Positions 8,664 to 35,830 of a DNA stretch of 36,969 nt are shown in pieces (the first letter of the stretch is position 1; the number at the start of each line of letters is the position of its first letter). The DNA is taken from positions 1 to 36,969 of IMG/VR virus record IMGVR_UViG_3300028388_001064; one strand, written 5' to 3'. The position numbers and the translations under genes were made by a program. The DNA is from a virus. Under the pieces are notes generated by a model that ran no database searches, was not told where the DNA came from, and saw nothing but the letters and a program-made list of their open reading frames with translations.

Positions 8664-8672
8664 ATTAATCTC

Positions 8673-8698
8673 CGAGTATTTTATATAGTATATACTCG
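8673..8698. promoter_or_regulatory. Inverted repeat with TATA-rich centre between structural and accessory blocks
   Basis: Perfect 7-bp arms (CGAGTAT / ATACTCG) flank a 12-nt AT-rich loop in the 55-nt gap between the 363- and 115-aa genes. On the minus strand the centre reads TATATAAAATA, near but not equal to the late element, about 14-25 nt before the ATG at 8663. It may be an operator or variant promoter that separates the two blocks. No T-tract follows, which argues against a terminator. Confidence 0.35.
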
Positions 8699-8718
8699 TT
8701 AATTAAGTTTGTCAACGG

Positions 8719-9810: not shown

Positions 9811-9813
9811 AAT

Positions 9814-10744: not shown

Positions 10745-10752
10745 TATTTATA
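10745..10752 (-). promoter_or_regulatory. T4-type late promoter, exact TATAAATA
   Basis: This is an exact match to the T4 late promoter element, with its internal TAA serving as the stop codon of the 508-aa fibre gene. It ends 25 nt before the ATG at 10719; a start about 6 nt downstream gives a 20-nt leader with AGGA as ribosome binding site. It is the best-matching late promoter found in the window. Confidence 0.65.
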
Positions 10753-16286: not shown

Positions 16287-16901
16287 TTACCCCTCATTAA
16301 AGCCTGTTAAGCTTTGAATTCTTACAGTATAATCGATTTGAATAAGTCTGTTTAAACTTTTTTGAATTGGATGAAAAATAACATGAGTAAGCAATCTACC
16401 TGTTCCTGTGGGATCAAAACTACGAAGTCCTAGTTCATCAAAAACATATAAACTTTCTGAACCCGATGCTGTGTCAAATGCATCTTGGCCGTCTGGTTCA
16501 CCATAGTCTAATAAACACGTAACTAAAATATCGGTATAATTTGTACCACTCACATGTCTTGTTTCTATTTTATTACGTGCAGGATCTATATTGTTAACAC
16601 TACGATCGTCAACTACTTTAGAAAATGTCTGATTGTAAAGACTAGCATTTGTTCCTGTTGAGTTTGGTGTTAGGTATGTAATAATACCTGTTGGGTCAAC
16701 GCTAGTGCCGCCATTTCCAAAACTCATTTCATGTATCCATCCTTCGCCGGCATTGCTTAGACTCTCAGCAAGAGCAATACTCATATTTTCGTAGTGGATA
16801 GCATTTCTTTTATTTAAGAGCACTTCACCAGAATTTGGATCATGTATTTTAACATGTCCTTCTAGTAAAACTCCTTGTTTATCATGTAAATTTTCAGCCA
16901 T
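16287..16901 (-). CDS. Probable virion structural protein, 204 aa
   Basis: The protein starts MAENLHDKQGVLLEGHVKIH. I place the start at ATG 16901 rather than the TTG two codons upstream because ACAGGA lies 7 nt before it. The N-terminal half has a beta-rich pattern (EGHVKIHDPNSGEVLLNKRN), then a helix (HYENMSIALAESLSNAGEGW) and a Gly-rich loop (FGNGGTSVDPTG). The C-terminus is beta-rich (HVIFHPIQKSLNRLIQIDYTVRI). No catalytic motif, signal peptide or membrane segment is seen. It lies between the giant baseplate gene and three fibre genes and overlaps the unit with the first of them closely, so it is probably a baseplate or fibre-attachment subunit; I cannot assign it to a T4 gene number. Confidence 0.6.
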   Translation of the reverse strand: MAENLHDKQGVLLEGHVKIHDPNSGEVLLNKRNAIHYENMSIALAESLSNAGEGWIHEMSFGNGGTSVDPTGIITYLTPNSTGTNASLYNQTFSKVVDDRSVNNIDPARNKIETRHVSGTNYTDILVTCLLDYGEPDGQDAFDTASGSESLYVFDELGLRSFDPTGTGRLLTHVIFHPIQKSLNRLIQIDYTVRIQSLTGFNEG

Positions 16902-16919
16902 TTTCAATTCCTGTCAATG

Positions 16920-16927
16920 TATTTATC
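16920..16927 (-). promoter_or_regulatory. Late-promoter-like GATAAATA overlapping the giant gene's stop
   Basis: GATAAATA (7 of 8 to TATAAATA) spans the TAA stop of the giant gene and ends 18 nt before the ATG at 16901. A start about 6 nt downstream gives a 13-nt leader that still contains the ACAGGA ribosome binding site. It would let the fibre block be expressed independently of the 15 kb upstream gene. Confidence 0.5.
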
Positions 16928-19900
16928 GCGGTAGATCAATTGTCTTTGCACGTAGGAAAGTTGCTACTTCAGTTTGTGACTTTCCTAGAGAGACACCTGG
17001 TTCATTCCAAATTTCGCCTTGTCTTCTTACTATAGTTAGCGTAGTATTTGGTTCAGGCGGATAAGTTAGGCGTACATACGCACCAATGTTTTTATTAACT
17101 GCATACTCAGCTTGTAACCATTCGTCTCCGTCTGGACTAAACTGTCCAAGTTCTGGATTATAAATCTTAATAGGATTCTTTCTCAGTCTTGATCCGTTAG
17201 CAAAGACTTCAATATCCATAGCTTCCCAATATTCTTCTGGAATACCCAGGTTGTCAAAATCATCCTTATACCACCCTGTTTCTGTTGCAGGATCAAATAC
17301 TTCACCTGTTCCTGGTCTAGGCAATGGTGCAAACGGTAATAGTATCTGAACGTATGGTATTGCTTTAGGAACAACCAAACTAGTAGCGGCTCTAATTGTA
17401 GGAGCTAATTCAGTATCATTGTATATTACAAGGTCGTATGCCCCAACTGGTAATGCAGGCGTAACAAACTGTATTTGTGTGCTGCTTACATAAGTTGTAG
17501 CAACTTGTACATCTTGTACAAATACCTGCACATTTGATCTGAATCCTTCGCCGTCAACTGTTGCAACTTGGCCGCCTAATGGGAATGCCGTATTATTGTT
17601 AAAATTATAAGATATACTATCAACTCTAATATCCGGGCTATTATTAGGATATACTGTGCTCATATCAATGTATTCGCCCGAAGTTGCAATTATGCGCTGT
17701 TCACTATCTTTATAAGGTATTGTGCTATCAAAACTTTGATTGTATAGTTTAGTACCTTCAGTATATACAGTTCTTACACCTGTTCCCAGTGTGCCTCTGC
17801 GTAGTTGTTTTAGCACATTACCTTCTCGGCGGAAGAATTCAATACGTTCGCCTTGAATAAAGATTATGCCAGGATTTCTACTATCTAATGCAGGTTCGGG
17901 TAAGTTTTCCCCTGATTCTACTAATGTAATAGTTCTATCGTACCAATTTAAAGGCTCTGCAAGTGTAAATTCGTCTTCTTTATTTAAACGCTTGTAGTGT
18001 ACCCTGTTAAGCATGTCTTTAAACTGTCTCCAACCAAATTTAGCACTAATAGGAGCATTTGCAAAGTGTATAATGTCTATTACATCATTCTCTGAAACTT
18101 CTGTAATAAATTTAATATATTTCTTATTTTCTAATAAGACGTAGTCTGCAGAAGGAGTCAACCATTTTCCGTTAAGCGCAACCCAAACATAATCAACGCT
18201 TATTGCTTGCTGACGCAATTCTATCAATCCATTTCTTAAGAATCTATAATCATAATATCCTTGACTGTTAGCTGACATTTGTGTTCTTTCGACCACATCA
18301 TAACTTTGTCTATCTATTCCCTGACTATCATGATTGCTAAACGTATAAACTCTAATTATATCGCCTTCGTTATACGGTTGATCAAAATACAATTCGCCAG
18401 GGGTTGAATCCACTCCACTAGTATCTACGAATTCATTCTGGTCATCAAAGAATCCAAATCTATATTCACCGCTATCAATAACGTAAACTTTAAGCTCGTC
18501 GCCCGCTTCTGCAACACCTCGATTTAAAATAATTGTGCTACCAGGCTGTGCATCGGGTTGAATGTTAGGATTAAATGATGTGGCACCTTCATATGTCCAA
18601 TCCTGCAAAAATTGTATTTGTCTACCATTTAAAAATACTTGTAGTTGTGATGCAGAAACAGAACCTACAGGTATTTGCCAAAGTTTTAATTTGTATTCTA
18701 AAATATTTTGCTCTACTGTAAATGATTCGCTATAACCTGCGTTTAGTACATTATCGTTGACTGTGACAATAGTTTTATATGCAACCGGATCCTGTGCAAA
18801 CGGTGCTTTACTTAATGTATATGAAAGCGAGCTTCCGTCTGCAATAAATTCATCTATTGTTACTTGACTAAACGATTGTATTTCGTTATTAAATAAAGCA
18901 AACTGTATGAATGCATTTTCCACAGGAGGTTGTACAAAACGTATCACACAACGATTAGGAACAGCATACGAATTATCTGATTGTATAAGTTCATATGGCT
19001 GTTCTGTGCCGTTGACTGACACAAATGCATGTACGTTTTCTCCGAATTCAACATTTGTTAAAAATTCTTGTGTACTACCATCTGAAATAAATTCATCATA
19101 ATCAAGAATGTTATCACCACTTACACCCATACTAGTAATTACAATGTTTGAATTATTTTCTGGTGCTTCATAAAATATAATTTGAGAATTTTCATAATCA
19201 ATTCTATATTCAGTTTCACCGTAAACTATATTGTAATCTATTTTTACAATAACGTTATTAAATTCAAAAGGCTTTTGGCGTAAGTCAAATGCTCGTGTAC
19301 TTCCGTCACCTTTAAATGAAACTGTTTGTATAAGACTAGAGCCACCTACTGGTCTTTCATAGACTGTAATGTCTAATGTATCAAGGACTTGTCCAGGAAC
19401 TACCTCTTCTGGACCTTTACTTGTAGTAGGAGTAACAAACCCGTCGCCATCCACATTAATTTCTTCTGCATTAATTCCTAATGCAGTTGTATAAGCTAAA
19501 TCGCCCCCCTGTAAGGCTGTATCGTAACTTTCTTCATTTGGTTGCAATGAACCATCCGAGGTGCTTTTACGAATTGTAATTATTTCCGATGGAGGATTAT
19601 CTTGGCCATTCGTACTGTTTTGTAAAAATTGACGATAACTAAATTCATTTTCAATAGTAAACGTATCTGTAACTCCGTCACCTATTAGTGTTTCCATAAA
19701 TGCATTTTTATTGTTTATAGATGAAACTGAACTACTACCGTCGTATTCTTCATCATCAACTCTAATACCGTTGATATAAACATTATACTTTACTCCATCT
19801 TCTAAAGGTTTAGTAAGTTGGAACACTAGTGTCGAGCCGTCTGTTTCAAACGTTTCCTCGTCAAAAGTTTCGTCAAATATGTCCCACGCACCAGTATACC

Positions 19901-22900
19901 AAGGATCCGAATCCCATCCTGGAGGTCCGCCAAATTCAAAGCTCTTAACTTCCACTCCACCATAGTCTACACCTTCCATTAATTGAGATACATCTTTACC
20001 TATTTGTCCACTAGTTGGATTGTAAAATAGGTTTATGCGATCTTGTGCTGAGAGAAGCCTGATTGACTTTTTATAATTAACAGTTATTATTGAATTATTT
20101 GCCGGCGGGTCTACGAATTGTATTTTACCATAATATTTGTCAAAGCCATCGTCTGTGTTAAGGAAGTTATCATAGCTATAAATGCTATTAAGTACAAGTT
20201 CTCCATTTACTAGTACTTCTACGGTATTAGTTCTCATATCCATTGGCCATTTAAGCTCAAAGTCTGTTAAACTGCCTGTGCCAACAAATGACTCTGCTTC
20301 GTTTAGCTGAGTAAATAGGAATGCTCCGGTTGTCCTGTCAAATTTAACAACAGTGTGCATACTTCTTACCAAGCTTTCGCCTATTTGAGATGCTAGGACA
20401 GCTTCTCTGCCGCCATCTCTTAGTGTTCCGTTCACTGTAACGGACGGTGCTACTAAGTATCCACTTCCTGGATTCGTAATAACCACACTCGAAATTACAC
20501 CATTTGGTCCGAGTGATGCTTTCGCAGTTGCATTACCTTCTATAATAATCTCAGGCGCACTTAAATAGCCTTCTCCTGCATCGCTGATCCCTATAGATGT
20601 AACTTTAAATGTAGTATTGTCAAACCAAAACTTTTCTGGATAGGTATTGACATCATCCAAATTACCTGCTAAAATTCCGTTTATAACTCTAATATTATTA
20701 GTTTCAATTGTATCTGTGCTTGTATTATATCTAGGAGGACTGTCAAAGTCTGTTACTGTGCTAGCACTATTTTCAATATTAGAATAATTAGAAACAAATT
20801 CTCTAATTTTAGCTTTGTAAGGTTTTACTTCTTCAATGTACTTTTCATAACTTTCAAGTGCATCATTTTTAAATGTTATTCTCTGCCTTAATGGGCCTAC
20901 ATTGTGTTGTGCTTTTACGAAGCTGGTTTTGAATGCCCAGTCAACATAACCTTGTTCTGAGAATACATAACGTAAACTTGCAAAGAATAACTTGTTATAT
21001 TCTGTTGCAAGATCGTTAACTAGAATATCATTTTTCAATGCCTCTAATATAATTCTAATTTCTGCAATAGGTTGACTATCGAAAAATTGTGTGTCGAAGG
21101 TTTGTGTATCAAAGCCAACTCTGCTGGTATCAAAGTTATATAGATTATCTTTAAATTGTATAGTACCATTTTGTACACCAATTGTTTTATAGTTCACTGT
21201 ATAATCTGTAGTATCTTGGCTGTCGATTTTTTCTAGTAGTAACCAACCTTCGCCGCCTACATTTAAAATTTTCACTACATCACCGAACGAGTCATCTAAG
21301 CCTTGCAGTTCAAATGATTGATTTACTACAAAATCAATTTCTGTAAATTCGTTATATCCTGTATCATACCAGTCAACATAATTCCAATATTTGGTGACAT
21401 CATAAGATTGGCTGCCAATTCTAGTCCAGCTATTTGTAGCACTAACTCTTTCATATAATGCCCAGTTACCTCTAATAGTCTGGTCTGCTGTAACTAATGC
21501 TGTAAAAGGTCTAACACTAATAATTGTATTTTCATTATAGTTGTTTCCAGGATCAGTTATTGCAACGTTTGTAATTTGTCCTAGATTGTTTATCGATATT
21601 TCAATTTTGGCGCCTTCGCCTATACCGCTTATTTCATAAGTTGGTGCAACAACATAACCTCTACCAGGATTTACAATATCCACGCGACTCAACTTACCGT
21701 CTTCGACTACTGCTGCTAATTCTGCACGCTCTGCTCTTACTACACCAATAAAGTCTAAGTCAATTTCGGTATCAACCGTAACATCATATTCTCCGTTGAT
21801 TTGAGACGGCGCAGGATCACTATCTAATATATTGTTAATATTTTTGTCTTCAACAATTAGATTTTCAAGCATTACTCTGTTTACACGTTCAACAATTTGT
21901 TTCAATGCTTCAGTTTTGTTTATAAACCAACTTTGTCTAGGATTGTTAAGAATGCCATAACGTTCCTTAATACTAAGTTTAGTATCTGGTACAGGACGTT
22001 CCTGACTATCAAAACCAACTAAACTATCCACCCATTTACGCTCAATATCAGGATACGGAATACTAGTATCTAATCCTTCTGTTAAAATTTGATATTGATT
22101 ATGTATATTACTAAAACGATCACTAAAGGTCCAATACTGTACACTAAGAACAACACTTCTGTCTCTTATCAAATCTTGACAGTTATAAACCGCAAAACTT
22201 GAACTGTCAAAAAAGCTAACAAATCTGTATCCTTGGCTTGCAGGATCTTCGATGAGTTTAGCTACAGTATCTACACTTAATGATCGACTCGCAACGTCTG
22301 GTATTGTTCTTTTATTTTTTACCCAAAAATAGTAATAATTTGTAAATCTTTGAGCAATACTGTCATATTCTCTTCTCTGAGTGTAAGCATTATCGCCATA
22401 TTTGGATAGACCTGTAATGCCTTGTGTTTCACCTTCTGGCTCTTGCGAAAGTCTATCCCATTCACTAGGTTTATATTTTGATTCTACCCATTCATAAACA
22501 TCAATGCTGGCACCTTCAAACAGTCTGTTAAAATTATTAGCTTTATAAATGGTATTGCCCTGATATACATTATAGAATTTTGCCTTTGTTAGGTCCCACC
22601 AGACTGTACCAAGTTGTGTTTTGCCCCACGCTTCTGTAGGATCAATATCCACACTTGTCAGTGTACCAATTGTATATGTTGCAGGATCGTATATCGTCTT
22701 ATATCGTATTTCCTCGTCTGCGATGCCTGCAATTTTACCTTGGACTGGATCTATGTAGTCTAAATTTTGTATTATTTCGTTACGATCTAAATCGTAAAGC
22801 ATTGCACGTTTGATCTTTGTAAGATCAACAGGGGGTGTTGGTTTTCTAAAGTCTTCCCACACCCTAACAGAATCAGGCCTTCTATAGTCAAGGACTGTTC

Positions 22901-25900
22901 CTATTTTACCATCGCTGTTTTCGTACGACGGTAATGACATATAAACATGATTATTCCTAGCCGTAATATTTCTACCAAAGAATTTAATTTCTGATTCATT
23001 TAAATCTAATGTTTGGCCAAAGATCAAGCTATCCTCAATTCTTTCGTAAACATATACAACACCGTTTGTAGCAATTACATTTTTAAAGTTTGTAAACTTA
23101 TTGTCAAACACAGTTGACTCACTATCAAATGTTGTAGTGTCATCGCTGTCTGCATTGAACGCACTTGCAAATAGTGTGCGTCCATCAAACTCTAGTTCTG
23201 CACCAAACAATTCACCTCTAACTGGATTCGTACTTCTTAAGGTTTGTGAAAGTATAAATGCACCATTTACTTGCTTGTAAATATATATAAGCCCACTTTC
23301 TTCTAAATCTCCGTTAGCATTTGGAGCGCCGATCGCTATTAATGTACCGTCTTGACTAATTGAAACTGATGCTCCAAATAATGATGTGCTACTATCGGCT
23401 AGAATTTCTTGACTCTTTTGATAGTTATCGTTTTGGTTTCTATAAATTATTGCTTTGTTGGCTTCGTCTTGGTACTGAGCAATTGCAACTAATACTTCAC
23501 CGTCGTCGCTTACATCAAACTCGTGGCCAAATTTAATAAGATTGGTTTGATCTAATTGTAGTGAACTATCGTTTCCTGGAACAAACTCTGTGTTATTAGG
23601 GATATACCCTACATAATCAATACTTCTAATATTATCATCAGTTGTTATATTCCAATCAAGTATATTAAATTCGTTTCCTGCTTGTATATTAGTTTTGGCT
23701 GTGTAAAAGTCGCCGTCTAAGAAAACTATATCGTTTACAAAATAGTCTTTTTCAGGTCCAAACTCTCCTCTATAACGCTTGTCTTTTGCAAGTTCCCAGT
23801 TATAGGAAATTCCTTCTTCGTCAGTTCCGTTGTTTACAAAATAAATGCGACCTGGATTTGCTGTTGTTCCGTTTCCTTCACAACCAATAAATGCCTTATA
23901 AAGATCATTCTGTTTTGCAATTTTGACTTTACTACCAATTCTTAAATTTTCTATTTGTTCTGGTACAATAAATGATCCTATACTTGTAAAGGTACTGATA
24001 TTCTCCCTTACATATACAGTAAATAACCCGTAATTGTCTAGTGCAACAGTTTCACCATCTGCATCTACAGGAATTCTATAAGATAGCCTCCAATCAAAAT
24101 TATTTGCAGAAGGAATATTTGGCTGAGTTGGTAGTCCTAATATTTCAAAATCTTTATAGATAATGTATTCTGCTCCTATAACAGCATCCTGCACCGGAAC
24201 GTCTTCAATCACTCCGTCTAATTGAATTACACATAGGTCTCCGATATTTAAACTATTGCTACCTAATGATGTTTCTTTTATATCACCCAAAATGCGTGTA
24301 ACAGAATATATCGGACTAGGATCAGTTGGATCGCCGATGAATTCAATGTCGGCACTTTCTCCAAAATTAGTGCCCAATGACCACTCGCCTTGTTTATTAT
24401 CTACAAAAATTGTTGCATTTACACCATTTCTTTGATAGAACTGCACTCTTGCTGTAGAGCCAGTTCTTCTGTCTCTCACAAACTGGCCTATTCTAGGTTC
24501 GTACGGACGTCCTAAGTCATCATTATTTTCTAATTCAAAATCTATCCAGCCATCCCATAGGGCATATAGTGTATGCGATTTATTTGTTTGCGGATAAGTT
24601 AGACCTGTAACTGTTATATCCACAAAACTACCATCATTAAAGTTAGGAAGATTTAAAATTTCTAATCCTATTTCGTCCCCGGCTGTTAATTGGTCTGTCA
24701 AATCTTTAGGCGCTCTTACTACAAACAAATCACTCAATATCGGGTCTAGTTCTCCGCCGGCTCCTGGAGATCCTTGGTATGTAAGTGTTCTTATATAACT
24801 ATTGATACTATTTGCGCCTTGGTCTGTAACTGTATTGTTTAGGTCGTAAATGTTTCCGCCAGCAGCACCGCTGTCTTCTTTTCCTGCTGGAATAATATTA
24901 TAAACAGCTAAAGCTCGTCCTTGGTCTTCGTTTGTTTCACCTACACTAATAACTTCATTAGTGTTAAACCACCAGTAACCACCCAAATCAGCAGAAGTAT
25001 CAAGATCTTCTTTAGGAGCAACTTTTACATATTCTCCAACAAACTCACCAGTTTCTAAGAATAGTGATCCGCTAGTGTCCCATATACCTGCACTATCTTC
25101 AACATATATTGTTGCACGGCCTTCAATCACAAATACATACGCAACATAGCCTGTTACACCGGTTGATTCAATTTGATCTCCCACCTGTGGCAATGTTGAA
25201 AGACTATTAATATCTAGTATTACATCAATTTTTTTCTGTATAATTAAACCGCTTTCAAGAAACGTCTCGTCAACACCTGGCACATTGCCATCAAAAGGTT
25301 GACGATCTTGCAATACTAACTGGGACTGATTAGCTGTCGTTTGTAAATACCAATCAAAGAATACTGTATCTCCCGGACCGGTTGCCGAATATTGATCTGC
25401 AAACGCCCTAACAAGAATATGATCTGTATCTTCATTCTTAAACGGATACTTACCAGTTAAAATATTATTGAATTCTATTTCACCCTGTGTAATATTATTA
25501 TCTTGTAATATTTCTATAATGCTTCCAAAGCTTCCAAAGGGTTGTTCAGCTTTTGCACCATTTATATCTACTACGGCTTCCCAAATTTGATCGCTATATC
25601 TAACTTGTTCGCCATTTTCATAATCTCTAGTTGTGACATAGTCTCCTGTGAATCTTGTTTTTACATTTGACGCATCTGGAGATCCTACAATTAAGTATCT
25701 GCCGTCGGCACTTAGTGCTAATCCTTTGCCGAATCCTTTGTTAGTGTCTGCTATTTCTTCTATAGGCTCTACTATCTGAGTAAATTGGAAATTTTGATTG
25801 TTACCGCCTCTAGTATATACAAATACCTTACCGTCTGTGTCTGCACCCGGCGATGCCAGCGCCATTGTAACATTTCTACTATCTATTGCAAGAGTTTGTC

Positions 25901-28900
25901 CAAAATTATTATCAGTTCCTGTTTCTTCAGCAGGAATTCTCTGTAAAATATCAAACGGTTGGTTATTTTTAATTACCCTCCAATTGTTATTTTCTATATT
26001 ATCTATCCAAACTAACGAGTTTTTAGATATTCCTTGTTGTGCTATTTCATTAGCATTATTATAATCCGTCGCTCTGACCGATTTAAATATTGTTAATAAT
26101 CCACGACACTCGTCAATATCATTAATAACTTGATTAGTTTCGATTATTATTTCGTTTAATCTAACTTGTAACACCTTAAAGAATCCTTGAACAGGTGCTG
26201 TAGTTTGAACTGTAATATCGTAAGAACTATCTTCCGGAGCAACTGCTGAAATTATTAAATCATAGATTCCAATTACATCGCCTGGGGCAATATTTTTTGG
26301 AGCATTACTTAGGGTTACAATAAACTGCTCTTTATCAGGAGCTCCTATACTAACAGCCGTTGCATTACCTTTTAAACTGGTAATGACACTGTCAGTAATT
26401 TCGTGTTGGTAAATGTTCCAAGAAAGGTTTTCTGTTCCTATCCAAACGTAATCACCATTATCAATGTTATTAATATCTAAGGTAATAATTTCTTCATAGT
26501 TATTTAAGATTGCTTTAGGATCATCAGTGTGAACATATCCAGCCGATCTTGTATATTGGGGTAGGTTTTCAAGCTGTGGAAATGCATTAGAAGTATATCC
26601 TTTAGGTTTTTTAAATACTTCAAAATCTCTAATTCTATATACTAAATCAGTTTCTTCGCCAGTTACATTATTTGTTAGTAGAAATGTTTGTGGTTCAATT
26701 CTATAGTTTCTTTCATCTAATCTAAATTCAACTTCGTCAAATCCTTCACTAGCACCATACTGGCCTTGTTTTACAGCCCATTCTTCATAAAAATCAAGAC
26801 TTTCTCTTCCAGCTGCACTTAACACATCAAATAATTTATCTAAACTATTTTTAGTTCCCTTTTCAAGTATCATTCCTTGGTAAAATTTATACTGACTTAC
26901 ATCATCGTTAATGATGTTTGCAAGATAATCTCTATTTTGATATCCTATTAGATGCTGTGCGAATTTCTGTTGCTCTACATCAAAATTATCAGTATCTAAA
27001 TCATAAAAATCAGCAAATTGATTTGTTTTGTATTCGAAGTTTGCTAACATTTCTGATTGCGGTTTAGACTCTAACCTTATCCATTTAGTAGAATCAAAAT
27101 TTTCTTCTCCAGTAATTTTTTCATCTGCTGTGTAATAAAATTCTTTATACTTTACAATATCACCAATGGAATAATCTTTCCACTGTTGCCATTCAGTAAC
27201 ATTTGCTTCATTGTATATAAAACCAGGAATATTTAAGCTACCGTCCCAATCTGTGGTTCTGTATCCAAATACTTTGATTCTTTCTTGGCGATATCCAGTT
27301 ATTGGTTGATATATTACATCCCCAAACACACTTGTATTATCTATCAATACAACATGTTCTTTCTGTACCAAAGGAAGTTGTACCGCGTATACGCCGTCAC
27401 CTGTGCTTTTAGGCTGAACTTTAAATTTATTTGATTCCTGACGACTGATTCTTGTGAAATCCTCGACAAGTTTTTTGCCATCTGCTTTAAGTAAACTATA
27501 TCCGTAAAAGTTATCAAATATATTATCTACTGTGGTGTATTGTGTCTCAAAATTAATTTCATCCGCCACAGGACTTAACGCAATTACAGCGCCTTCGCTC
27601 CAATTTTGTGTTGACCAAAACATAAATTCTCGACAGCTATTTTTCCAGTCTGAAAGTACTTCTTCTTCTCCGTCATAGTATTCGAATCTAAAACCTTGAT
27701 CTTTAAGCCATGTTTCGTAGCCTAGCAAGAAATCTATTACTGATTGTACTGATCTTAATAAAGAACCGTAAGGAAGAACTTCTTCTTCAAAAGTGAAGAA
27801 TTTTTCTTTGAAAATTCCGTCTACTCCGCCTGTGGTAGGCAATTTAGGAAGTTTAGTGTATTTTGAAGGATCAAATGTTGCAGAAGCCGTATGTGTCTCT
27901 ATAACTTTGTAGAATGCGTCAAGATAGCGTACATTTTTTCCTTCTATGTAAGTTTGTTGTGGTTCCCAGTTACTAAAAGGTTCTGATATACCACCAACAT
28001 TTACTGTGATATCTCTGTTAGATGAAATTGGTCTATAGTATCTAAATGTCGGAGCGTCTCTATTATACCCTCTAATTATAAAACCAGCAGCAATCTTTTC
28101 TACAATAACACCACTGTAATTAATGGTTTTTAATGGCGAACTTGTATTTAGGATAATATCATAGTTTTCCTCAGGAACAAATACATTGCCGTTGTTTGAT
28201 GGGGTTCTAGAGTCTAGTATTAGCTTGAATTTAGATTTATCTGTAAATCCTCCTAGTTTGAATGCTAGTGAATTCTTTATGTTTTTCAGTTTTCTTTTGT
28301 AGTCATTAAAAGATGCTGTTACACTTGATGCCATAAATCCGGCAATGTAGTTTACAACACCAGACGTAAGCACTTCAGTAGAATCTTTAGCTGTATTAGG
28401 AAACACTAGATCATTTAGGGTAATATGATCCATGGTTTCTGTATACACTAGATGTCCTAAAATATTTCTTGTCTGTCTTGATCTGTCAAAGCCAGATGCT
28501 AGTAACGAGGACGGTGAATTTATTGCCCAGCTTGTTAATAAAGCAAATGGATAATCTGAACTATTAAACCATGCACTCTCGACCGGCGAACTATCACCAA
28601 ATACAAAAGGATCATCTAATCCAAGGCTGTTAAACTTAAGAGGTAAGTTTGCATCTGAAGGACTTAGCAAATTGCCGTCGACGTCTACCGGTATCCAAGA
28701 TGTCAACCCAGGGCGAACGTATTTTGGATTTATTTTAAATGCTTTTCCGGGTTCTCTAACAATACCTTTTTCTAGGTCTTCCCAAAGCAATAGGTTTTCA
28801 CTAGTGTACGGAGCAGGTCCGTATTGTTCTTCCCACCAAGTTGGTTTAATTGTAAAACCTAGCATTTCCCAAGGATGGGTATGAGGATGATCAGTATCCA

Positions 28901-31900
28901 ATACTTGCTTGTACACTCCTCTCCACCATCCTGGCAAAAACTCACCTGCTGGAGATCTTAGATTTGAGTAGTTCCAAGTAAATGAATCTAATCTATCAAA
29001 GAATCTATTTTCTGTATAATCACTATCGACTAATTGTAACCATTGTACAAAATCTGTAATCATAGGTGCATAAACATCATTTCTTGAAAAACCTGTATCT
29101 CTGAACGAACTAGGAAGGTATGTGTTTATGTCAAATACTAGAGGATCATAATCAATCTTTATATTATTAAAAATTCTTTTTTCTAACTCTATTATAAGAT
29201 CGTCACGGAAATCTCCGTATGCACGAAGTAAACTACCGTCATGTCCTCTGATCATAGTCACTTCATCACCGTAGGTAAAATCTGTGTAAATTTCAGGACG
29301 ATATTTAGGAAACAATCCTAATTTAGTCGGAGTTGGAGGAATATAGTTTCCGTTTGTTGTTTCGTACTCGTTTATTTCAAGTATATCGCCAAAGTTTTTA
29401 TCTATTAAAAGTTCTAAAAATCCTTCGCTATTAAATGTGTAATCTCTTCCATGAATTAATTGTATATCATTTAAGTATACTGTTACACTTCTTGTGCTTA
29501 AATTTTCTAGTGTAAATGCTGTATTAAGTGCATAAAAATTTGCATCTTGATCTTCGATTGTTATTCTTGTAGTAACGCTTGCGCCAAATGCAATCATATC
29601 ACTAAAGTAGAAAGGCATTGTGTTTACTTTATCTTTAGTAATATGTTGAATAATTTTATCAACATGCTGCTTTGTAGGACCTTCATATCCTAAGGTTTCG
29701 GCTGTTTCCAAGAATAATCTTTTAAACTTACTATATTCTTTTCTAGCATATCTTAAAGATTTAATTAGATTAGATTCTTTATCAAGAGTGCTAAACATTG
29801 CAAGATTTAAGGGAGCAGAATGTTTGATAAACTTTCTGCCGTATCTACTTTGATTTGATAGATCTCGCAAGTTGCTAGGACCAGGAAAAATGCCGCTAAA
29901 ATTTGGAAGATTTTCTGCAATGCTTGCTACATGATCTGTTACTTCCCCTAGTGTAAATTCACTCACATTTTGGTTTAATGGATTTCTTTCTAAATTTGAT
30001 GCTATTTCATAGTAGCCGTTTTTGTTCTTAGGCGTTTGCGTCTTTGTCTTAATAATAATGTTTGCATCGTTTTCAATATTGTTGATAAATCTCACAGACT
30101 TTAATTTATCCGCATTGTCAACTAATTCGTAATCAACTCCTTGATAAACAATGTTGTTATTTACAAAGACCTTCACTTCTAGATCCGTGATAAATGCACT
30201 TTGGTCGTAACAATTAATTGGATAAGATAATCTAGTTCCGTCATTTACATATTGTAAAATTACTTCTTGTTGACTGAGATTCGTTGCCTTGGTATAGGCT
30301 CCGAGAACCTCATATTGATTATTACTATTATATTTTCTTAAGAATCCTGAGTTTATTTTTACAGAAAACGTTTCGTCGCCTATTTGATATTCCGCTGTAT
30401 CAGAATTAAAGTTAAAATCAAATTGAATGTCTCCTACATTCTCGATACTTTTGTACGTCAAAGGAAAACCTAGCACACTGTCGTTATTGCCCATTCCTTC
30501 TCTATAACTGAATATTCTCGTTCCCCTGAATGTGGTTGCAGGATATACACTAGTATTAGCTAAACTTGTACCGTCTAAATCGTATACATCAAAAACAGGA
30601 GGCTGATTTACCGATGTTTTTTCTTGCGCTCTATTCCAGTTTTCTCCGTCATAATACCAAATAGAACCTGCCAGATTCTCACCTTGAGTAACAAGGACAT
30701 TTTCTCCTACAAGAGGTAAAGTATCGGTTGTTTCTACTAAACTTATTTGACCCGAATCTCCACTACCTCGAAACTGTATAAATTTAACTTCAAATATTCT
30801 ACCTTTTACTAAAGGATCGTTGTCATTAAGGAATAGTATGCGCATTCCTTCAGATAGTTGCACACTATCAATATTATAGCCTAAACTTCCTTCAATTGTG
30901 CTAAATGCATCAGTAGTATAGTCATCAATAAGGTCTATTACTTCTTTAGTCCTTGTTCCGAAATTGTAAAGTTTTAGTCCAGCTTCGAACTCAATAATTG
31001 GCCTATTTGCACGTTGGTTTTGATCTATTAACACTTCAGATCCAGTGACTTCTGCAGCTAATGCAATCACATCTTTGTGGAACCAACGATTATATCTCGA
31101 CCAAAAGTTTCCATCTGGGCTAGATCGGTTAATTGTAATATAGTCTTTGTCTCTTGGGTAGCCTGTTGAAGTACCGTATGGAAGACGATCAAAACCTTCT
31201 TCATTGTCAAAAGGCACAACTAAATCAATGCCCACCGGAAATGAAACTTCAACATCCTTGTCACTGATTAATTTAATTTTATCACCAACACCTTCAATAT
31301 ACCATTCAGAAGTAGCATATTTGCTAGGAAGAACTTCACCAGCAAATCTTACTTTTAATCCATTCGTTAGACTCCAACCGTCTCTAGTGGTATAAAACTT
31401 CTTTCCTAATATTTCAGTTTCTACATCAATAACAGTTGCTTCCTCTTGATTTGCAACTTTTATTAAACCTCCAATATTGATATCGTTTTCGGCAACATAA
31501 AAAATTTCATTAGGTGTACTAGCATCCAATGTAAGCTCAATAGTTCCAGTTTCTACCGCCTGTGCCGAAACTCCATCAGTTAAAAGAAATGCGTCATCTA
31601 GTGTCCTTGCAGTTCTAAAAGTAAATGGCAATCCTGGTGTGTTAATTTCAAATGTATATTTTACACCTCTGTATAATTTAATTGTCGGGTTACTGGTTAA
31701 TCCGTCTGGTGTAAACACATAAGAATAATCTCCTAGACTGTCTAGTAAATTAACACTATATGTGCTAGCAATTTCTTTCTGTTCGCCAGGAATAACCACT
31801 GTTTGTGGTCCATTAGGTAACCAATAGTATTCTCTAAAGTTTGTAAACCTATCCCAATCTATACGAGGGTCCCAAACATAAAACTCTTGTTGGTTGTTAC

Positions 31901-32270
31901 GACTGTGATTATTTTTCAATCCGCCAAAGTTTTCTATTTGGTTAATGAAGTCTATATAGTCTCTTAGATATTCTACATTGCCTAAATTATCTTTAATAAC
32001 ACTTACAGGTTCTAATTGATAATTCTGTCTATCTGCTGATATTTCATCTAAGTAATTATTTTCTGCTTTAAATGCTTTTGCTGTTTTTCTTCCTACAAAT
32101 TCATTTACTTTCTCAGCAACACCTGGCTGAAGTAGCTGATCAAGGGTAGAATGCAAAAATTTTGTATTTTTTTCGGTGCGGAAATATTTAGGTAAATGTC
32201 TTGCACTTTCTCTTTTTTGAGGATTTTCTCCTGGTAGAGGAAATTCGTTTTGATTATCTTCGTATGCCAT
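16923..32270 (-). CDS. Giant 5115-residue baseplate or tail-associated structural protein
   Basis: One uninterrupted frame of 15.3 kb starts at ATG 32270, overlapping the gp6 stop, with GGAGGA about 12 nt upstream. It lies where T4 has genes 7, 8 and following (gp7 is 1032 aa), so I infer a wedge or baseplate-periphery protein; no residue-level match to gp7 is claimed. Visible parts, by approximate residue: FG-GAP blades at 2125-2205 and 2905-3123; four CBM5/12-like segments near 1432-1480, 1687-1733, 2205-2250 and 2830-2877; a helix-rich block at 3700-3830 (FFASLRYVFSEQGYVDWAF, EEVKPYKAKIREFV); GxGY repeats near 3530-3590 and 3893-3945; tandem beta-sandwich repeats at about 3990-4600 (FxGDGST..F, then V..NG, then I.F..PP); an IPT/TIG-like domain at 4875-4965; and a short C-terminal sequence (SLGKSQTEVATFLRAKTIDL). 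No catalytic motif was recognised. Giant virion proteins of this kind are known in marine T4-like phages, but their function is not settled. Confidence 0.8.
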   Translation of the reverse strand: MAYEDNQNEFPLPGENPQKRESARHLPKYFRTEKNTKFLHSTLDQLLQPGVAEKVNEFVGRKTAKAFKAENNYLDEISADRQNYQLEPVSVIKDNLGNVEYLRDYIDFINQIENFGGLKNNHSRNNQQEFYVWDPRIDWDRFTNFREYYWLPNGPQTVVIPGEQKEIASTYSVNLLDSLGDYSYVFTPDGLTSNPTIKLYRGVKYTFEINTPGLPFTFRTARTLDDAFLLTDGVSAQAVETGTIELTLDASTPNEIFYVAENDINIGGLIKVANQEEATVIDVETEILGKKFYTTRDGWSLTNGLKVRFAGEVLPSKYATSEWYIEGVGDKIKLISDKDVEVSFPVGIDLVVPFDNEEGFDRLPYGTSTGYPRDKDYITINRSSPDGNFWSRYNRWFHKDVIALAAEVTGSEVLIDQNQRANRPIIEFEAGLKLYNFGTRTKEVIDLIDDYTTDAFSTIEGSLGYNIDSVQLSEGMRILFLNDNDPLVKGRIFEVKFIQFRGSGDSGQISLVETTDTLPLVGENVLVTQGENLAGSIWYYDGENWNRAQEKTSVNQPPVFDVYDLDGTSLANTSVYPATTFRGTRIFSYREGMGNNDSVLGFPLTYKSIENVGDIQFDFNFNSDTAEYQIGDETFSVKINSGFLRKYNSNNQYEVLGAYTKATNLSQQEVILQYVNDGTRLSYPINCYDQSAFITDLEVKVFVNNNIVYQGVDYELVDNADKLKSVRFINNIENDANIIIKTKTQTPKNKNGYYEIASNLERNPLNQNVSEFTLGEVTDHVASIAENLPNFSGIFPGPSNLRDLSNQSRYGRKFIKHSAPLNLAMFSTLDKESNLIKSLRYARKEYSKFKRLFLETAETLGYEGPTKQHVDKIIQHITKDKVNTMPFYFSDMIAFGASVTTRITIEDQDANFYALNTAFTLENLSTRSVTVYLNDIQLIHGRDYTFNSEGFLELLIDKNFGDILEINEYETTNGNYIPPTPTKLGLFPKYRPEIYTDFTYGDEVTMIRGHDGSLLRAYGDFRDDLIIELEKRIFNNIKIDYDPLVFDINTYLPSSFRDTGFSRNDVYAPMITDFVQWLQLVDSDYTENRFFDRLDSFTWNYSNLRSPAGEFLPGWWRGVYKQVLDTDHPHTHPWEMLGFTIKPTWWEEQYGPAPYTSENLLLWEDLEKGIVREPGKAFKINPKYVRPGLTSWIPVDVDGNLLSPSDANLPLKFNSLGLDDPFVFGDSSPVESAWFNSSDYPFALLTSWAINSPSSLLASGFDRSRQTRNILGHLVYTETMDHITLNDLVFPNTAKDSTEVLTSGVVNYIAGFMASSVTASFNDYKRKLKNIKNSLAFKLGGFTDKSKFKLILDSRTPSNNGNVFVPEENYDIILNTSSPLKTINYSGVIVEKIAAGFIIRGYNRDAPTFRYYRPISSNRDITVNVGGISEPFSNWEPQQTYIEGKNVRYLDAFYKVIETHTASATFDPSKYTKLPKLPTTGGVDGIFKEKFFTFEEEVLPYGSLLRSVQSVIDFLLGYETWLKDQGFRFEYYDGEEEVLSDWKNSCREFMFWSTQNWSEGAVIALSPVADEINFETQYTTVDNIFDNFYGYSLLKADGKKLVEDFTRISRQESNKFKVQPKSTGDGVYAVQLPLVQKEHVVLIDNTSVFGDVIYQPITGYRQERIKVFGYRTTDWDGSLNIPGFIYNEANVTEWQQWKDYSIGDIVKYKEFYYTADEKITGEENFDSTKWIRLESKPQSEMLANFEYKTNQFADFYDLDTDNFDVEQQKFAQHLIGYQNRDYLANIINDDVSQYKFYQGMILEKGTKNSLDKLFDVLSAAGRESLDFYEEWAVKQGQYGASEGFDEVEFRLDERNYRIEPQTFLLTNNVTGEETDLVYRIRDFEVFKKPKGYTSNAFPQLENLPQYTRSAGYVHTDDPKAILNNYEEIITLDINNIDNGDYVWIGTENLSWNIYQHEITDSVITSLKGNATAVSIGAPDKEQFIVTLSNAPKNIAPGDVIGIYDLIISAVAPEDSSYDITVQTTAPVQGFFKVLQVRLNEIIIETNQVINDIDECRGLLTIFKSVRATDYNNANEIAQQGISKNSLVWIDNIENNNWRVIKNNQPFDILQRIPAEETGTDNNFGQTLAIDSRNVTMALASPGADTDGKVFVYTRGGNNQNFQFTQIVEPIEEIADTNKGFGKGLALSADGRYLIVGSPDASNVKTRFTGDYVTTRDYENGEQVRYSDQIWEAVVDINGAKAEQPFGSFGSIIEILQDNNITQGEIEFNNILTGKYPFKNEDTDHILVRAFADQYSATGPGDTVFFDWYLQTTANQSQLVLQDRQPFDGNVPGVDETFLESGLIIQKKIDVILDINSLSTLPQVGDQIESTGVTGYVAYVFVIEGRATIYVEDSAGIWDTSGSLFLETGEFVGEYVKVAPKEDLDTSADLGGYWWFNTNEVISVGETNEDQGRALAVYNIIPAGKEDSGAAGGNIYDLNNTVTDQGANSINSYIRTLTYQGSPGAGGELDPILSDLFVVRAPKDLTDQLTAGDEIGLEILNLPNFNDGSFVDITVTGLTYPQTNKSHTLYALWDGWIDFELENNDDLGRPYEPRIGQFVRDRRTGSTARVQFYQRNGVNATIFVDNKQGEWSLGTNFGESADIEFIGDPTDPSPIYSVTRILGDIKETSLGSNSLNIGDLCVIQLDGVIEDVPVQDAVIGAEYIIYKDFEILGLPTQPNIPSANNFDWRLSYRIPVDADGETVALDNYGLFTVYVRENISTFTSIGSFIVPEQIENLRIGSKVKIAKQNDLYKAFIGCEGNGTTANPGRIYFVNNGTDEEGISYNWELAKDKRYRGEFGPEKDYFVNDIVFLDGDFYTAKTNIQAGNEFNILDWNITTDDNIRSIDYVGYIPNNTEFVPGNDSSLQLDQTNLIKFGHEFDVSDDGEVLVAIAQYQDEANKAIIYRNQNDNYQKSQEILADSSTSLFGASVSISQDGTLIAIGAPNANGDLEESGLIYIYKQVNGAFILSQTLRSTNPVRGELFGAELEFDGRTLFASAFNADSDDTTTFDSESTVFDNKFTNFKNVIATNGVVYVYERIEDSLIFGQTLDLNESEIKFFGRNITARNNHVYMSLPSYENSDGKIGTVLDYRRPDSVRVWEDFRKPTPPVDLTKIKRAMLYDLDRNEIIQNLDYIDPVQGKIAGIADEEIRYKTIYDPATYTIGTLTSVDIDPTEAWGKTQLGTVWWDLTKAKFYNVYQGNTIYKANNFNRLFEGASIDVYEWVESKYKPSEWDRLSQEPEGETQGITGLSKYGDNAYTQRREYDSIAQRFTNYYYFWVKNKRTIPDVASRSLSVDTVAKLIEDPASQGYRFVSFFDSSSFAVYNCQDLIRDRSVVLSVQYWTFSDRFSNIHNQYQILTEGLDTSIPYPDIERKWVDSLVGFDSQERPVPDTKLSIKERYGILNNPRQSWFINKTEALKQIVERVNRVMLENLIVEDKNINNILDSDPAPSQINGEYDVTVDTEIDLDFIGVVRAERAELAAVVEDGKLSRVDIVNPGRGYVVAPTYEISGIGEGAKIEISINNLGQITNVAITDPGNNYNENTIISVRPFTALVTADQTIRGNWALYERVSATNSWTRIGSQSYDVTKYWNYVDWYDTGYNEFTEIDFVVNQSFELQGLDDSFGDVVKILNVGGEGWLLLEKIDSQDTTDYTVNYKTIGVQNGTIQFKDNLYNFDTSRVGFDTQTFDTQFFDSQPIAEIRIILEALKNDILVNDLATEYNKLFFASLRYVFSEQGYVDWAFKTSFVKAQHNVGPLRQRITFKNDALESYEKYIEEVKPYKAKIREFVSNYSNIENSASTVTDFDSPPRYNTSTDTIETNNIRVINGILAGNLDDVNTYPEKFWFDNTTFKVTSIGISDAGEGYLSAPEIIIEGNATAKASLGPNGVISSVVITNPGSGYLVAPSVTVNGTLRDGGREAVLASQIGESLVRSMHTVVKFDRTTGAFLFTQLNEAESFVGTGSLTDFELKWPMDMRTNTVEVLVNGELVLNSIYSYDNFLNTDDGFDKYYGKIQFVDPPANNSIITVNYKKSIRLLSAQDRINLFYNPTSGQIGKDVSQLMEGVDYGGVEVKSFEFGGPPGWDSDPWYTGAWDIFDETFDEETFETDGSTLVFQLTKPLEDGVKYNVYINGIRVDDEEYDGSSSVSSINNKNAFMETLIGDGVTDTFTIENEFSYRQFLQNSTNGQDNPPSEIITIRKSTSDGSLQPNEESYDTALQGGDLAYTTALGINAEEINVDGDGFVTPTTSKGPEEVVPGQVLDTLDITVYERPVGGSSLIQTVSFKGDGSTRAFDLRQKPFEFNNVIVKIDYNIVYGETEYRIDYENSQIIFYEAPENNSNIVITSMGVSGDNILDYDEFISDGSTQEFLTNVEFGENVHAFVSVNGTEQPYELIQSDNSYAVPNRCVIRFVQPPVENAFIQFALFNNEIQSFSQVTIDEFIADGSSLSYTLSKAPFAQDPVAYKTIVTVNDNVLNAGYSESFTVEQNILEYKLKLWQIPVGSVSASQLQVFLNGRQIQFLQDWTYEGATSFNPNIQPDAQPGSTIILNRGVAEAGDELKVYVIDSGEYRFGFFDDQNEFVDTSGVDSTPGELYFDQPYNEGDIIRVYTFSNHDSQGIDRQSYDVVERTQMSANSQGYYDYRFLRNGLIELRQQAISVDYVWVALNGKWLTPSADYVLLENKKYIKFITEVSENDVIDIIHFANAPISAKFGWRQFKDMLNRVHYKRLNKEDEFTLAEPLNWYDRTITLVESGENLPEPALDSRNPGIIFIQGERIEFFRREGNVLKQLRRGTLGTGVRTVYTEGTKLYNQSFDSTIPYKDSEQRIIATSGEYIDMSTVYPNNSPDIRVDSISYNFNNNTAFPLGGQVATVDGEGFRSNVQVFVQDVQVATTYVSSTQIQFVTPALPVGAYDLVIYNDTELAPTIRAATSLVVPKAIPYVQILLPFAPLPRPGTGEVFDPATETGWYKDDFDNLGIPEEYWEAMDIEVFANGSRLRKNPIKIYNPELGQFSPDGDEWLQAEYAVNKNIGAYVRLTYPPEPNTTLTIVRRQGEIWNEPGVSLGKSQTEVATFLRAKTIDLPR
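22895..23560 (-). other. FG-GAP-like propeller blades 3-6 within the giant protein
   Basis: Residues about 2905-3123 carry four units: FGHEFDVSDDGEVLVAIAQY; FGASVSISQDGTLIAIGAPN followed by GLIYIYK; FGAELEFDGRTLFASAFNAD followed by GVVYVYE; and FGRNITARNNHVYMSLPSYE. Spacing of 55-75 residues and the alternating FG / GAP / YVY pattern fit blades of one beta-propeller shared with the two upstream units. Confidence 0.6.
25655..25895 (-). other. FG-GAP-like propeller blades 1-2 within the giant protein
   Basis: Residues about 2125-2205 hold two units with FG at the start and a SPG/GSP turn: FGQTLAIDS ... ALASPGADTDGKVFVYT, then FGKGLALSADGRYLIVGSPD. This is the integrin-type FG-GAP blade pattern (FG..., hydrophobic strand, GAP/GSP, G.VyVY). 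Four more units lie about 700 residues further on. Confidence 0.6.
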
Positions 32271-35200
32271 TAGTAGCTATATCCTCCGCCTGTATTTCCG
32301 CTGGAACTTGTACTTGTACTTCCGCTAGAAATTGTACTTCCGCTATTAGTAACTGGTGTTGCAGTGTCGTCAAATGTTGCACTCTGTATTCCTACGTTAG
32401 ATGTTTGTGTCTGCGTTATAACTTGTCCACTAGATTTTAGTCTCGATGCTGTAATAGCATCAATAATCTCGACGTCGTCGACACTTGCACCACTTATAAA
32501 TATTTCATCTGCTTCAGCTTTAATTTCATAAAGACTTCCAAATGTTTGTTCCTCTTGTACTGGTACAAGTACGAAGGTAGTAAGATCAGGGGAAAGTTGT
32601 GTCATTACATAATTTGCTAGTTCTGAGAAATAAAATGTTTCTCCAAAGTCCCAATTTTCGAGTGCAAAGAATTCATTTACGGCTGTAATCACTCTTGATT
32701 TGATATCATTATCATTCAACACTCTTTCTGAATTCTTTACTACTTTAAATTTTGCTTTCAAATCTTCGTCTGCCTGATTTCCGAATAGTATTTTATACTT
32801 AACTGGATGATATATAACTTCGTCAGTAAGTGATTTAATTTGGTTCAATGCAGGACCGTACTCGATACTTAATCGATCGCTACTGACTGGTAGAGGTTTC
32901 TGTGCAATCTCTTCTGTAAGCCAAAGGCGAAAATCATTGTCATAATTTCTAGTTAACAAATACATATCAATAATATTACTTGCGCTAGGATCAATTCTTG
33001 CTTCTTGGCTTGCGGCATGAATATAACGGAATTTAATGGCATCCCTGCCTAATCTAGCTTTATAGTCAGATGTAATTGATAATCTTAGTGTTGTTTTATT
33101 AAGCACTTCAAAGATGTTAGTGTCAATATAATAAAAGATTTGACCGTCGTCATATGTACTAAAAGGTTGCAGTTCTGTTTTAGAGTTAAGAACAATTATT
33201 TCATCATTAGCATTTGCAAAATAATTAAAATCTTCAACACCATCGTTAGAAACTATCTTTTGAAAAATAATATATTTAGAAGTAGTATTAATTTCAGGTG
33301 AAACTATTTGTTCAAATAGATCTGCATCGTCTACAATGCCATCTTCGTCATCATCAAAATAACTTATTTCTAATTTTTTACTATCAACATATCCTTCTGC
33401 GTCTCTATACGCATCTACAATTTCCCATTCGTAATCTTGAGTAAACGCATTTGGATTGTCAGGCTGAGGATTGATATTAAGAACAGTAATTCTATCCTTA
33501 ACAATTTTTCCTGTTTTATTATCATAAATTTTATCCGAGCTGTCGTAATAAAATCTTATTTCGTTATCACTTTCGAACACGTAGCGCATTGATCTATTAG
33601 TAATTGTGTACTTTTCGCTATCTGTTTCAAATAGCAATAGCCAGCTAGCATCTAATTGTTGATTAGTTACATCACCAGTTTTACCTGTTGAGAACGGAGT
33701 TCCAATAGATAAATTATTTTCGGTTACTAGCCTCCATTGTCCTTCAATTTGATCAAAACGTAAACCAAATGTTCTTTGTGCAAATATCTGATCAATGATT
33801 TGTTGTTTTACTCCTGGTTCTAAATTATTGGCAAGAGCTGGTTTAATTTCAGCTAATATAGCACCAGTCGGAATAACATCGTTAAAAAATACAGCTCCAG
33901 AACCGTCTTCTCTTTGTTCTACACCTGTTCCATTAATACTAATTACTTTTACCCATTTGTAATAGGTATCTCCAAGAGTAAGAGCCGGTCCTGAAACTAG
34001 TTCGCCCTTAGAATTAAAATGGTTAGTAGAAGTATCAGGATCAGTTGGATTTTGTTTTGCTACAAATCCCGGTGCAATTAATTTAATTAAACTACCTGCT
34101 TTTATTAGTCTTAGAATTGATCCTGTAAATCTTCCCAAAGTTGCAGGCAAATCTTCAGTATTTTTAAAATAACCAGTGCTTAGATTTGTTTCGGCGGTTT
34201 GTTGCACCCAATTAACACCAAGGTCTGTTGTTAAAATTCTAGGAAATTGATCAAAGTAAAAATTTCTAACTTTTGTATTGCCTAATATAGGTGTAATAGT
34301 ATTTTCTACAACACCTTCGACATCGGTTCTAGTTGTAAATGTAAAACTAGTGAGATTGTTTTGGTATTCTTTGTAAACGACTCCATCATTACCATAAAGT
34401 GTTGTTTGACTATATTTTCCTGTGGCGTCTATTAAATCAAAATATCTACTAATGCCGCTGGATATTCTATTAACCGCTTTTGCTTTAACAATTTGCTGGT
34501 TAATTCCTAAAGGTGCAAGTTGATAATCTTCCCCTGTAACCATTCTATTCTGTGTGTAATATGTTGCAGGAGCATTTAGTTTAATGCTGTCAGAAGATTC
34601 TGATATTGAACTGTTGTCTACAGTATACTTTAAACCATATGTAAGATTTATAGTTTCTACTTTGCCCCTCTTAGAAAGATAAGGAATAGCAATATTAATA
34701 CCTTTGAAAAATCTTGGAGTTACAGTTACACGTTGATTTAACCCTGTTCTAAAATAAATCTTAAATTGTCCACGCGGTAAGGCACCAAATGTGCCATCTG
34801 AAAATATAAGAGTTACCCTGTCATCAGTTCTAGTCAGCACACTGTAAATATTTCTTTGATCTTTACTTAGATTGTTATAGATAATATTGTTACCTTCAAT
34901 AGCATCTACCTTAGTCCACAATTCTTCTTCGTTTCCAAGACTGTTTAGTTTGTAAAGCCAAACATCACTATTGTTTATGTTTGGTGTTTCTATTGCAACA
35001 CTTTGGTTTGAACTAGGATTGCTAATTGTAAAGAATCCTTGATCTAGTGTGCCTTGACGGAAGTGGCTAAAGAATCCATTATTTGAACTTGACGGGCCTT
35101 TGCCGTCATCACGGTATAAAAATGCAAAATTATTTCCAGGAAATGGTGATTCTTCTACTATCGAATCTGCTGTTATGTCTGTGGATACTATTTCAAATCT

Positions 35201-35830
35201 TACAGCTCTGCCGTCAACAGTTTTATTAAAATTGTAAACTGGAATATCTGTGTTGACGCTACTCAAACGATACTGTTCGGTTTCTATTCCTGCAATAGTA
35301 TCTTTTTTAGACGGTCTTCCAAATGTTCCGTTAACAGGAAGTGCTGTATTTAATACTTTAATAAATTGCTCATACCAGTCTTCGTTAGATGGATCGTTCC
35401 AAACAATTGTTTGGTTTTGTAGATTAACGTTGTTGCTATCTCTTATTTCTTCAGAAGTCCTCACGCTGTCTAGTTTTAGCAATCCGTTTGCTGGCTGATT
35501 GCGCTTAGGATTATAAGAAAGCAGCCTTGCTAAACGTAATACACTTTCACGACGTTCTGCAAGCTCTAGGTAATTCTCTCTTGCATTAAGATCGATTCGG
35601 AATGAAATATTTTGACCAAGAAACGCAATAAGATCAATTAGTGCAAGATACTCAGAACTTTCTACATAATCATTAAAATCTTCTGGATAGTTTTCTCTTA
35701 GATATTGAATCATTGTTCGACGTAGATTATCGAAGTCATAATTCTTAAAGTCTGCATTGCGGAAACTTTGGTAGACACGCTTCCAATCTTCCGCAAGTAG
35801 TAATCTATTTTGTCTATCTGTTGACGACAT
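32270..35830 (-). CDS. 6: Baseplate wedge subunit gp6 (baseplate J-like), enlarged
   Basis: The protein has 1186 residues against 660 for T4 gp6. The N-terminus (residues about 10-110) carries the conserved family block: WKRVYQSF, then FDNLRRTMIQYLRENYPEDF, SEYLALIDLIAFLGQN, and a helix with ARENYLELAERRESVLRLA. This is the segment by which gp6 dimers form the inner baseplate ring. The middle holds repeated beta-rich stretches, and a J-like portion with HPVKYKILFGNQ and SRVITAVNEFFALENWDFGE lies near residues 1000-1080. The C-terminal 25 residues are Gly/Ser-rich (GNTGGGYSY end), probably a flexible tail. The ATG at 35830 is preceded by AGGA at a spacing of 7. The last bases overlap the start of the giant gene (TAATG), so the two are probably translationally coupled. 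Confidence 0.92.
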   Translation of the reverse strand: MSSTDRQNRLLLAEDWKRVYQSFRNADFKNYDFDNLRRTMIQYLRENYPEDFNDYVESSEYLALIDLIAFLGQNISFRIDLNARENYLELAERRESVLRLARLLSYNPKRNQPANGLLKLDSVRTSEEIRDSNNVNLQNQTIVWNDPSNEDWYEQFIKVLNTALPVNGTFGRPSKKDTIAGIETEQYRLSSVNTDIPVYNFNKTVDGRAVRFEIVSTDITADSIVEESPFPGNNFAFLYRDDGKGPSSSNNGFFSHFRQGTLDQGFFTISNPSSNQSVAIETPNINNSDVWLYKLNSLGNEEELWTKVDAIEGNNIIYNNLSKDQRNIYSVLTRTDDRVTLIFSDGTFGALPRGQFKIYFRTGLNQRVTVTPRFFKGINIAIPYLSKRGKVETINLTYGLKYTVDNSSISESSDSIKLNAPATYYTQNRMVTGEDYQLAPLGINQQIVKAKAVNRISSGISRYFDLIDATGKYSQTTLYGNDGVVYKEYQNNLTSFTFTTRTDVEGVVENTITPILGNTKVRNFYFDQFPRILTTDLGVNWVQQTAETNLSTGYFKNTEDLPATLGRFTGSILRLIKAGSLIKLIAPGFVAKQNPTDPDTSTNHFNSKGELVSGPALTLGDTYYKWVKVISINGTGVEQREDGSGAVFFNDVIPTGAILAEIKPALANNLEPGVKQQIIDQIFAQRTFGLRFDQIEGQWRLVTENNLSIGTPFSTGKTGDVTNQQLDASWLLLFETDSEKYTITNRSMRYVFESDNEIRFYYDSSDKIYDNKTGKIVKDRITVLNINPQPDNPNAFTQDYEWEIVDAYRDAEGYVDSKKLEISYFDDDEDGIVDDADLFEQIVSPEINTTSKYIIFQKIVSNDGVEDFNYFANANDEIIVLNSKTELQPFSTYDDGQIFYYIDTNIFEVLNKTTLRLSITSDYKARLGRDAIKFRYIHAASQEARIDPSASNIIDMYLLTRNYDNDFRLWLTEEIAQKPLPVSSDRLSIEYGPALNQIKSLTDEVIYHPVKYKILFGNQADEDLKAKFKVVKNSERVLNDNDIKSRVITAVNEFFALENWDFGETFYFSELANYVMTQLSPDLTTFVLVPVQEEQTFGSLYEIKAEADEIFISGASVDDVEIIDAITASRLKSSGQVITQTQTSNVGIQSATFDDTATPVTNSGSTISSGSTSTSSSGNTGGGYSY

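Follow-up and report, generated by a model that had tools for sequence, protein, structure and literature searches.

In phage T4, the baseplate wedge genes stand in the order gp6-gp7-gp8 with an overlap between gp6 and gp7, and gp7 is a protein of 1,032 aa (PDB 5IV5, 5HX2). The proteins in the same slot of Mosig, Melnitz and Ac42 are of similar length (874-1,026 aa). In cyanophages, the gene that follows gp25 and gp6 can encode a giant of 3,515 to 7,351 aa (lengths from record coordinates), and some of these giants are annotated as baseplate wedge initiator. P-SSM2 has a 5,195-aa ORF (PCMG_00114) in the order gp25-gp6-giant-gp8, in which gp25 and gp6 were placed by position and size and gp8 is a separate gene. 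The T4 gp7 profile matches this protein, the HHalign comparison of T4 gp7 with its family gives 94% (E 1e-7), and the two weak matches of its N-terminus to PDB are both gp7. Other Kyanoviridae giants were found in ACG-2014f (4,225 aa), Bellamy (4,067 aa), S-RSM4 (3,515 aa), P-TIM40 (7,351 aa) and P-SSM7 (7,124 aa). Giant gp7 proteins are therefore already known. In P-TIM40 (locus L298, 65082-87137) and P-SSM7 (locus L299, 54052-75426), about 650 residues precede the gp7 core, as if gp6 had been fused to gp7 in one chain. In S-CREM2, the slot between two wedge genes holds ORF122 (baseplate wedge protein, intermediate; 1,937 aa from coordinates), which was detected with 91 unique virion peptides (PMC10665884) and whose slot is comparable to that of the giant described below.

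Giants of 3.3-4.6 kaa, which belong to PHROG 10938, also follow gp25-gp6 in the jumbo phages RaK2, PBECO4, GAP32, PA5oct, XacN1 and Phosso. The same order is present in Munch and Vibrio 2.275.O, and gp6-type-giant in Atu_ph07; where a record leaves gp6 or gp25 unnamed, as some do, the gene was assigned from its position and size. Members of the family include PBECO4 gp538 (3,333 aa), RaK2 gp465, PA5oct gp355 (3,857 aa), Atu_ph07 AUZ94962 (4,449 aa) and SCTP-2 gp140 (3,807 aa), the last at the equivalent place and preceded by a very long unannotated ORF. This ORF in SCTP-2 (locus L003, 8606-17896) encodes a second giant of 3,096 aa at the expected place of gp6, adjacent to the PHROG 10938 giant on its upstream side. 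The family is annotated as virion structural protein in the category head and packaging, whereas the locus of its members is the baseplate.

Two members have been linked to virions. In phAPEC6, gp245 (hypothetical protein, 381.88 kDa) was detected with 17 unique virion MS peptides and adjoins gp244, a baseplate wedge protein (PMC7247149). The PBECO4 giant has a computed mass of 383 kDa, and from size and position we infer that gp245 is its orthologue. PA5oct gp355 is marked ESI-MS/MS in its database record. Virion presence is thus reported, in the literature and in record notes, for orthologues in other phages rather than for the phage studied here.

The window that we analysed is a stretch of viral DNA of 36,969 bases (Table 1). 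Its giant ORF on the minus strand starts with ATG and contains no internal stop, covers 15,348 bases (41.5%) and encodes 5,115 aa with a computed mass of 577.7 kDa and a pI of 4.5, in agreement with the single uninterrupted 15.3 kb frame over about 41% of the window that the first-pass annotation had described. On the minus strand, the gene order is gp5-type fragment, gp25, gp6-type, giant, PHROG 11259 protein and then fibre-like genes. The TAA of the gp6-type gene overlaps the ATG of the giant as TAATG, with GGAGG upstream. The giant thus lies in the same slot as T4 gp7, with the same kind of overlap, and is five times larger; by position, it occupies the gp7 slot. It had been proposed to take the place of T4 genes 7, 8 and following. 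The gene 7 slot is indeed taken, but replacement of gp8-12 is unsupported and P-SSM2 retains gp8. In the window gp8 was not recognised, and the next gene after the giant is the small PHROG 11259 protein; in PA5oct, SCTP-2 and Phosso, the gene at this position is alike in size.

Table 1. Coordinates of the baseplate locus and of the parts of the giant protein (residues are those of the giant).
Feature	Residues	Position	Strand	Details
gp5-type hub / tail lysozyme fragment		36351..36968	-	truncated by contig end
gp25-type baseplate wedge protein		35886..36338	-	PF04965
gp6-type baseplate wedge protein		32270..35830	-	1,186 aa; PHROG 10646 and 219
Giant wedge-type protein		16923..32270	-	PHROG 10938; 5,115 aa, 578 kDa
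Conserved block 1	1-157	31800..32270	-	common to all jumbo-phage orthologues
Inserted beta domain	176-273	31452..31745	-	resembles C-terminal part of PHROG 677
Conserved blocks 2 and 3	350-900 and 960-1690	27201..31223	-	
Chitin-binding type-3 (CBM5/12)-like module	1432-1476	27843..27977	-	Z 7.2, 45 residues, rmsd 1.2
Second CBM5/12-like module	1688-1736	27063..27209	-	Z 7.7, 45 residues, rmsd 1.4
Candidate gp7 core	1737-1860	26691..27062	-	KGTKNSLDKLFDVL at 1804-1817
Variable insert	1990-3140	22851..26303	-	FG-GAP propeller repeats
Conserved block 4	3137-3500	21771..22862	-	
Conserved block 5	3600-3862	20685..21473	-	
C-terminal mosaic	3863-5115	16926..20684	-	weak matches to phage tail and gp10 modules
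TIG domain	4893-4953	17412..17594	-	IPT/TIG (PF01833), 36.2 bits, cut-off 20.9
PHROG 11259 protein		16287..16907	-	206 aa, next gene after giant
Tail fibre protein with collar domain		14201..16282	-	PF07484

Three slices of the giant match PHROG 10938 with E 2.5e-177, 3e-74 and 5.9e-80, and small slices match too. The jumbo-phage members are homologous to the window giant over 1-1990 and 3140-3860 with about 24-33% identity; they differ in being shorter and in that the propeller/CBM insert is reduced or nearly absent in several. The Kyanoviridae giants share the gp25-gp6-giant slot, a similar size and a long extension with the window giant, but their gp7 core lies near the N-terminus and is recognisable from T4 gp7. 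Between the P-SSM2 giant and the window giant we detected no full-length homology, only short repeats in common.

With the first 1,001 residues as query, at least 597 encoded N-terminal relatives were identified in viral contigs; the closest are 65-73% identical to the giant over the first 1,000 aa among the matches listed, and 48 related sequences align along the giant. The loci retrieved with the A1 profile include 40 frames closed at both ends, with a median of 5,066 aa and a majority of 4.9-5.3 kaa; L136 and L206, which are the shortest, appear cut or split. L033 and L136 were rejected as naturally shorter giants, as both reach about 3,680 aa and stop where their contig ends. For pairs with unsaturated dS, dN/dS is about 0.1-0.4 throughout the length of the giant, and in pairs at 47-63% identity, where dS is near or at saturation, non-synonymous changes are far fewer than synonymous ones in every segment. 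The ORF is genuine. At the DNA level, no relatives of positions 1-24000 of the window were found among phage records. A T4-type major capsid protein was detected in six of the eight long marine relatives searched and in the four jumbo genomes. Hundreds of related phages, from the ocean or of the jumbo type, are already known to have giants of this kind, and the window protein is a new example, neither unprecedented nor the largest in the slot. The first-pass annotation had implied rarity, but cyanophages and jumbo phages commonly carry proteins of 3-7 kaa at this place.

The giant has residues 1-157, about 350-900, 960-1860, 3137-3500 and 3600-3862 in common with the jumbo phages; the beta domain after block 1 is absent from several jumbo orthologues. 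Two AlphaFold models are confident mainly for the blocks before 1640 and for the CBM modules, with pLDDT mostly 75-95 at about residues 1050-1290 and 1380-1640. CBM5/12 (PF02839) stays under the Pfam cut-off at 1434-1465 and 1693-1714 (best 22.6 bits versus 26.2), but the top structural matches of the models at these sites are the chitin-binding type-3 fold (Z 7.2-7.7, below 8; rmsd 1.2-1.5). The second of these modules is an insertion in the lineage of the window. FG-GAP repeats flank the large insertion, weakly at 2110-2152 and above the Pfam cut-off at 2964-2998 (PF14312, 29.6 bits in one slice against a cut-off of 23, and 22.8 in another cut of the region). Because the insert is almost missing from the PBECO4 orthologue, the propeller is an addition and not part of the core. 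When slices and profiles of the giant were compared with PDB sequences, nothing emerged beyond weak chitin-binding domains. The mosaic of propeller, carbohydrate-binding-like, beta-sandwich and TIG segments proposed earlier holds: FG-GAP and TIG pass Pfam, the fold matches suggest CBM-like modules, and the beta-sandwich modules are supported.

A search for a gp7-like N-terminus had also been proposed. It gave no signal for block 1-160 as the gp7 N-terminal core and nothing significant in HHalign for 16 slices of the giant against the T4 gp7 family, and the relatives of the window giant contained no match to the T4 gp7 profile. With a broadened gp7-core profile, HHalign gave E of about 0.003-0.012 (probability 4-10%, below significance) at a candidate core, and E 0.05-0.9 for almost all other slices; slice 1500-1700 gave one equally weak match, with the T4-led profile only. 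The top site of the gp7-core profile is a KG motif in 34 of the 51 related proteins, which are not independent of each other. As the scores at this motif are very low and not clearly above the shuffled control, the evidence here is concordance of place and not score. The spacing K-G-x3-S-x3-L-F-x2-L, a pattern written after inspecting the sequence, is the same in the giant and gp7, so that a possible KG motif joins gene position and overlapping start among their likenesses. KGTKNSLDKLFDVL occurs once in the giant (chance 0.013 per sequence for this post hoc pattern). In the longer gp7 motif FY..KG.....LF..L, the FY of the giant lies four residues further upstream, and the full motif is unmatched in the jumbo orthologues, in which the last positions differ. 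The most conserved 50-residue stretch among the marine relatives (1751-1800) falls inside the candidate core. AlphaFold predicts helices around the KG motif at pLDDT of about 30-50 in the candidate core, and gp7 was not among the Foldseek matches of the giant models, in which the core itself is of low confidence; structure prediction of slices, another check proposed at the outset, thus yielded matches to the chitin-binding type-3 fold but none to gp7. The sequence features suggest, but do not prove, a gp7 core at 1737-1860.

In our view, the giant is probably a baseplate wedge backbone that stands in the gp7 slot of a marine phage of the T4 superfamily and has been enlarged by the insertion of modules (FG-GAP propeller, chitin-binding type, beta-sandwich and TIG). 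The blocks shared with the jumbo phages would form the wedge scaffold. By analogy with T4, from which the gp6 contact, the copy number and the surface role are all taken, the baseplate would contain about six copies of the giant, each joining a pair of gp6 subunits beside gp25, and the giant would nucleate wedge assembly and connect the hub with the periphery. The insert 1990-3140 (propeller/CBM) and the C-terminal beta-sandwich/TIG mosaic would project outwards and hold fibres or contact the host surface. The first-pass annotation had predicted a giant virion-type protein at this locus, and the orthologues detected by virion MS in other phages agree with this.

CBM-like, propeller, beta-sandwich and TIG modules are typical of fibres and adhesins, and the gp7 homology is not significant; the giant could thus be a peripheral adhesin or fibre-anchoring protein on the baseplate, with a different, unrecognised protein as the true gp7. 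We regard this as unlikely, since the place of the giant immediately behind gp6 is constant among phages whose hosts differ widely and the giant has large conserved blocks outside the modules, whereas the adhesin-like modules are its variable part, with the propeller insert nearly absent in PBECO4. In seven complete jumbo genomes, no other gp7 was detected with the gp7-core profile, but this search is too insensitive to exclude another divergent gp7 because it also missed the giants themselves. The contrast drawn at the outset, scaffold or adhesin rather than wedge piece, proved a false choice: the conserved blocks are wedge-like, and the insert and the C-terminus are display-like. Less likely still is a single-chain fusion covering gp7 plus gp8- or gp10-like functions, to which weak matches with gp8-family repeats (PHROG 438) near 3500-3590 and with gp10 domain 3 near 4700 would point, as would the lack of a recognised separate gp8 in the window. 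However, the PHROG 438 matches are to a short repeat common to many giant virion proteins and not to a whole gp8, the gp10 match is under the cut-off, and gp8 is encoded separately in P-SSM2. That the frame is an assembly artefact or a spurious fusion, which its source in a 37 kb metagenome fragment might suggest and which had been named beforehand as the test of the frame, has practically no chance in view of intact like-sized orthologues in many independent contigs and isolate genomes and of purifying selection over its length.

Read as an expanded wedge backbone, the giant provides a testable role for a protein family that is very abundant in marine phages. PHROG 10938 then probably belongs to the baseplate wedge, and its head and packaging category is probably wrong. 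PHROG 701 and PHROG 4406 are also filed under head and packaging, and the P-SSM2 wedge giant matches both. The gp7 position can grow from roughly 0.9 kaa to over 7 kaa with gp25 and gp6 still adjacent, which bears on how contractile phages gain baseplate host-contact modules. More tentatively, and as an idea that we would not yet lean on, at least two lineages, the Kyanoviridae and the marine and jumbo PHROG 10938 phages, may independently have made gp7 a wedge backbone of 3-7 kaa, with about 1,600 residues inserted into the core, and so splitting it, in the latter. If true, about 3.5 MDa of the baseplate would lie in one protein species that bears its own receptor-contact modules.

Beyond the baseplate genes, a single run of genes close to those for the tail fibres encodes three radical SAM proteins (2-1117, 2437-3885 and 3869-5251, minus strand). 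Between them and the fibres, the ORF run at 5248-10719 (minus strand) has no PHROG or Pfam match. A fibre-like protein is encoded at 10748-12274 (minus strand), and its C-terminus matches an autoproteolytic Peptidase_G2 / intramolecular chaperone domain below the threshold. One of the three radical SAM proteins has a SPASM domain, an unassigned 451-aa ORF sits among their genes, and their run is possibly a modification system.
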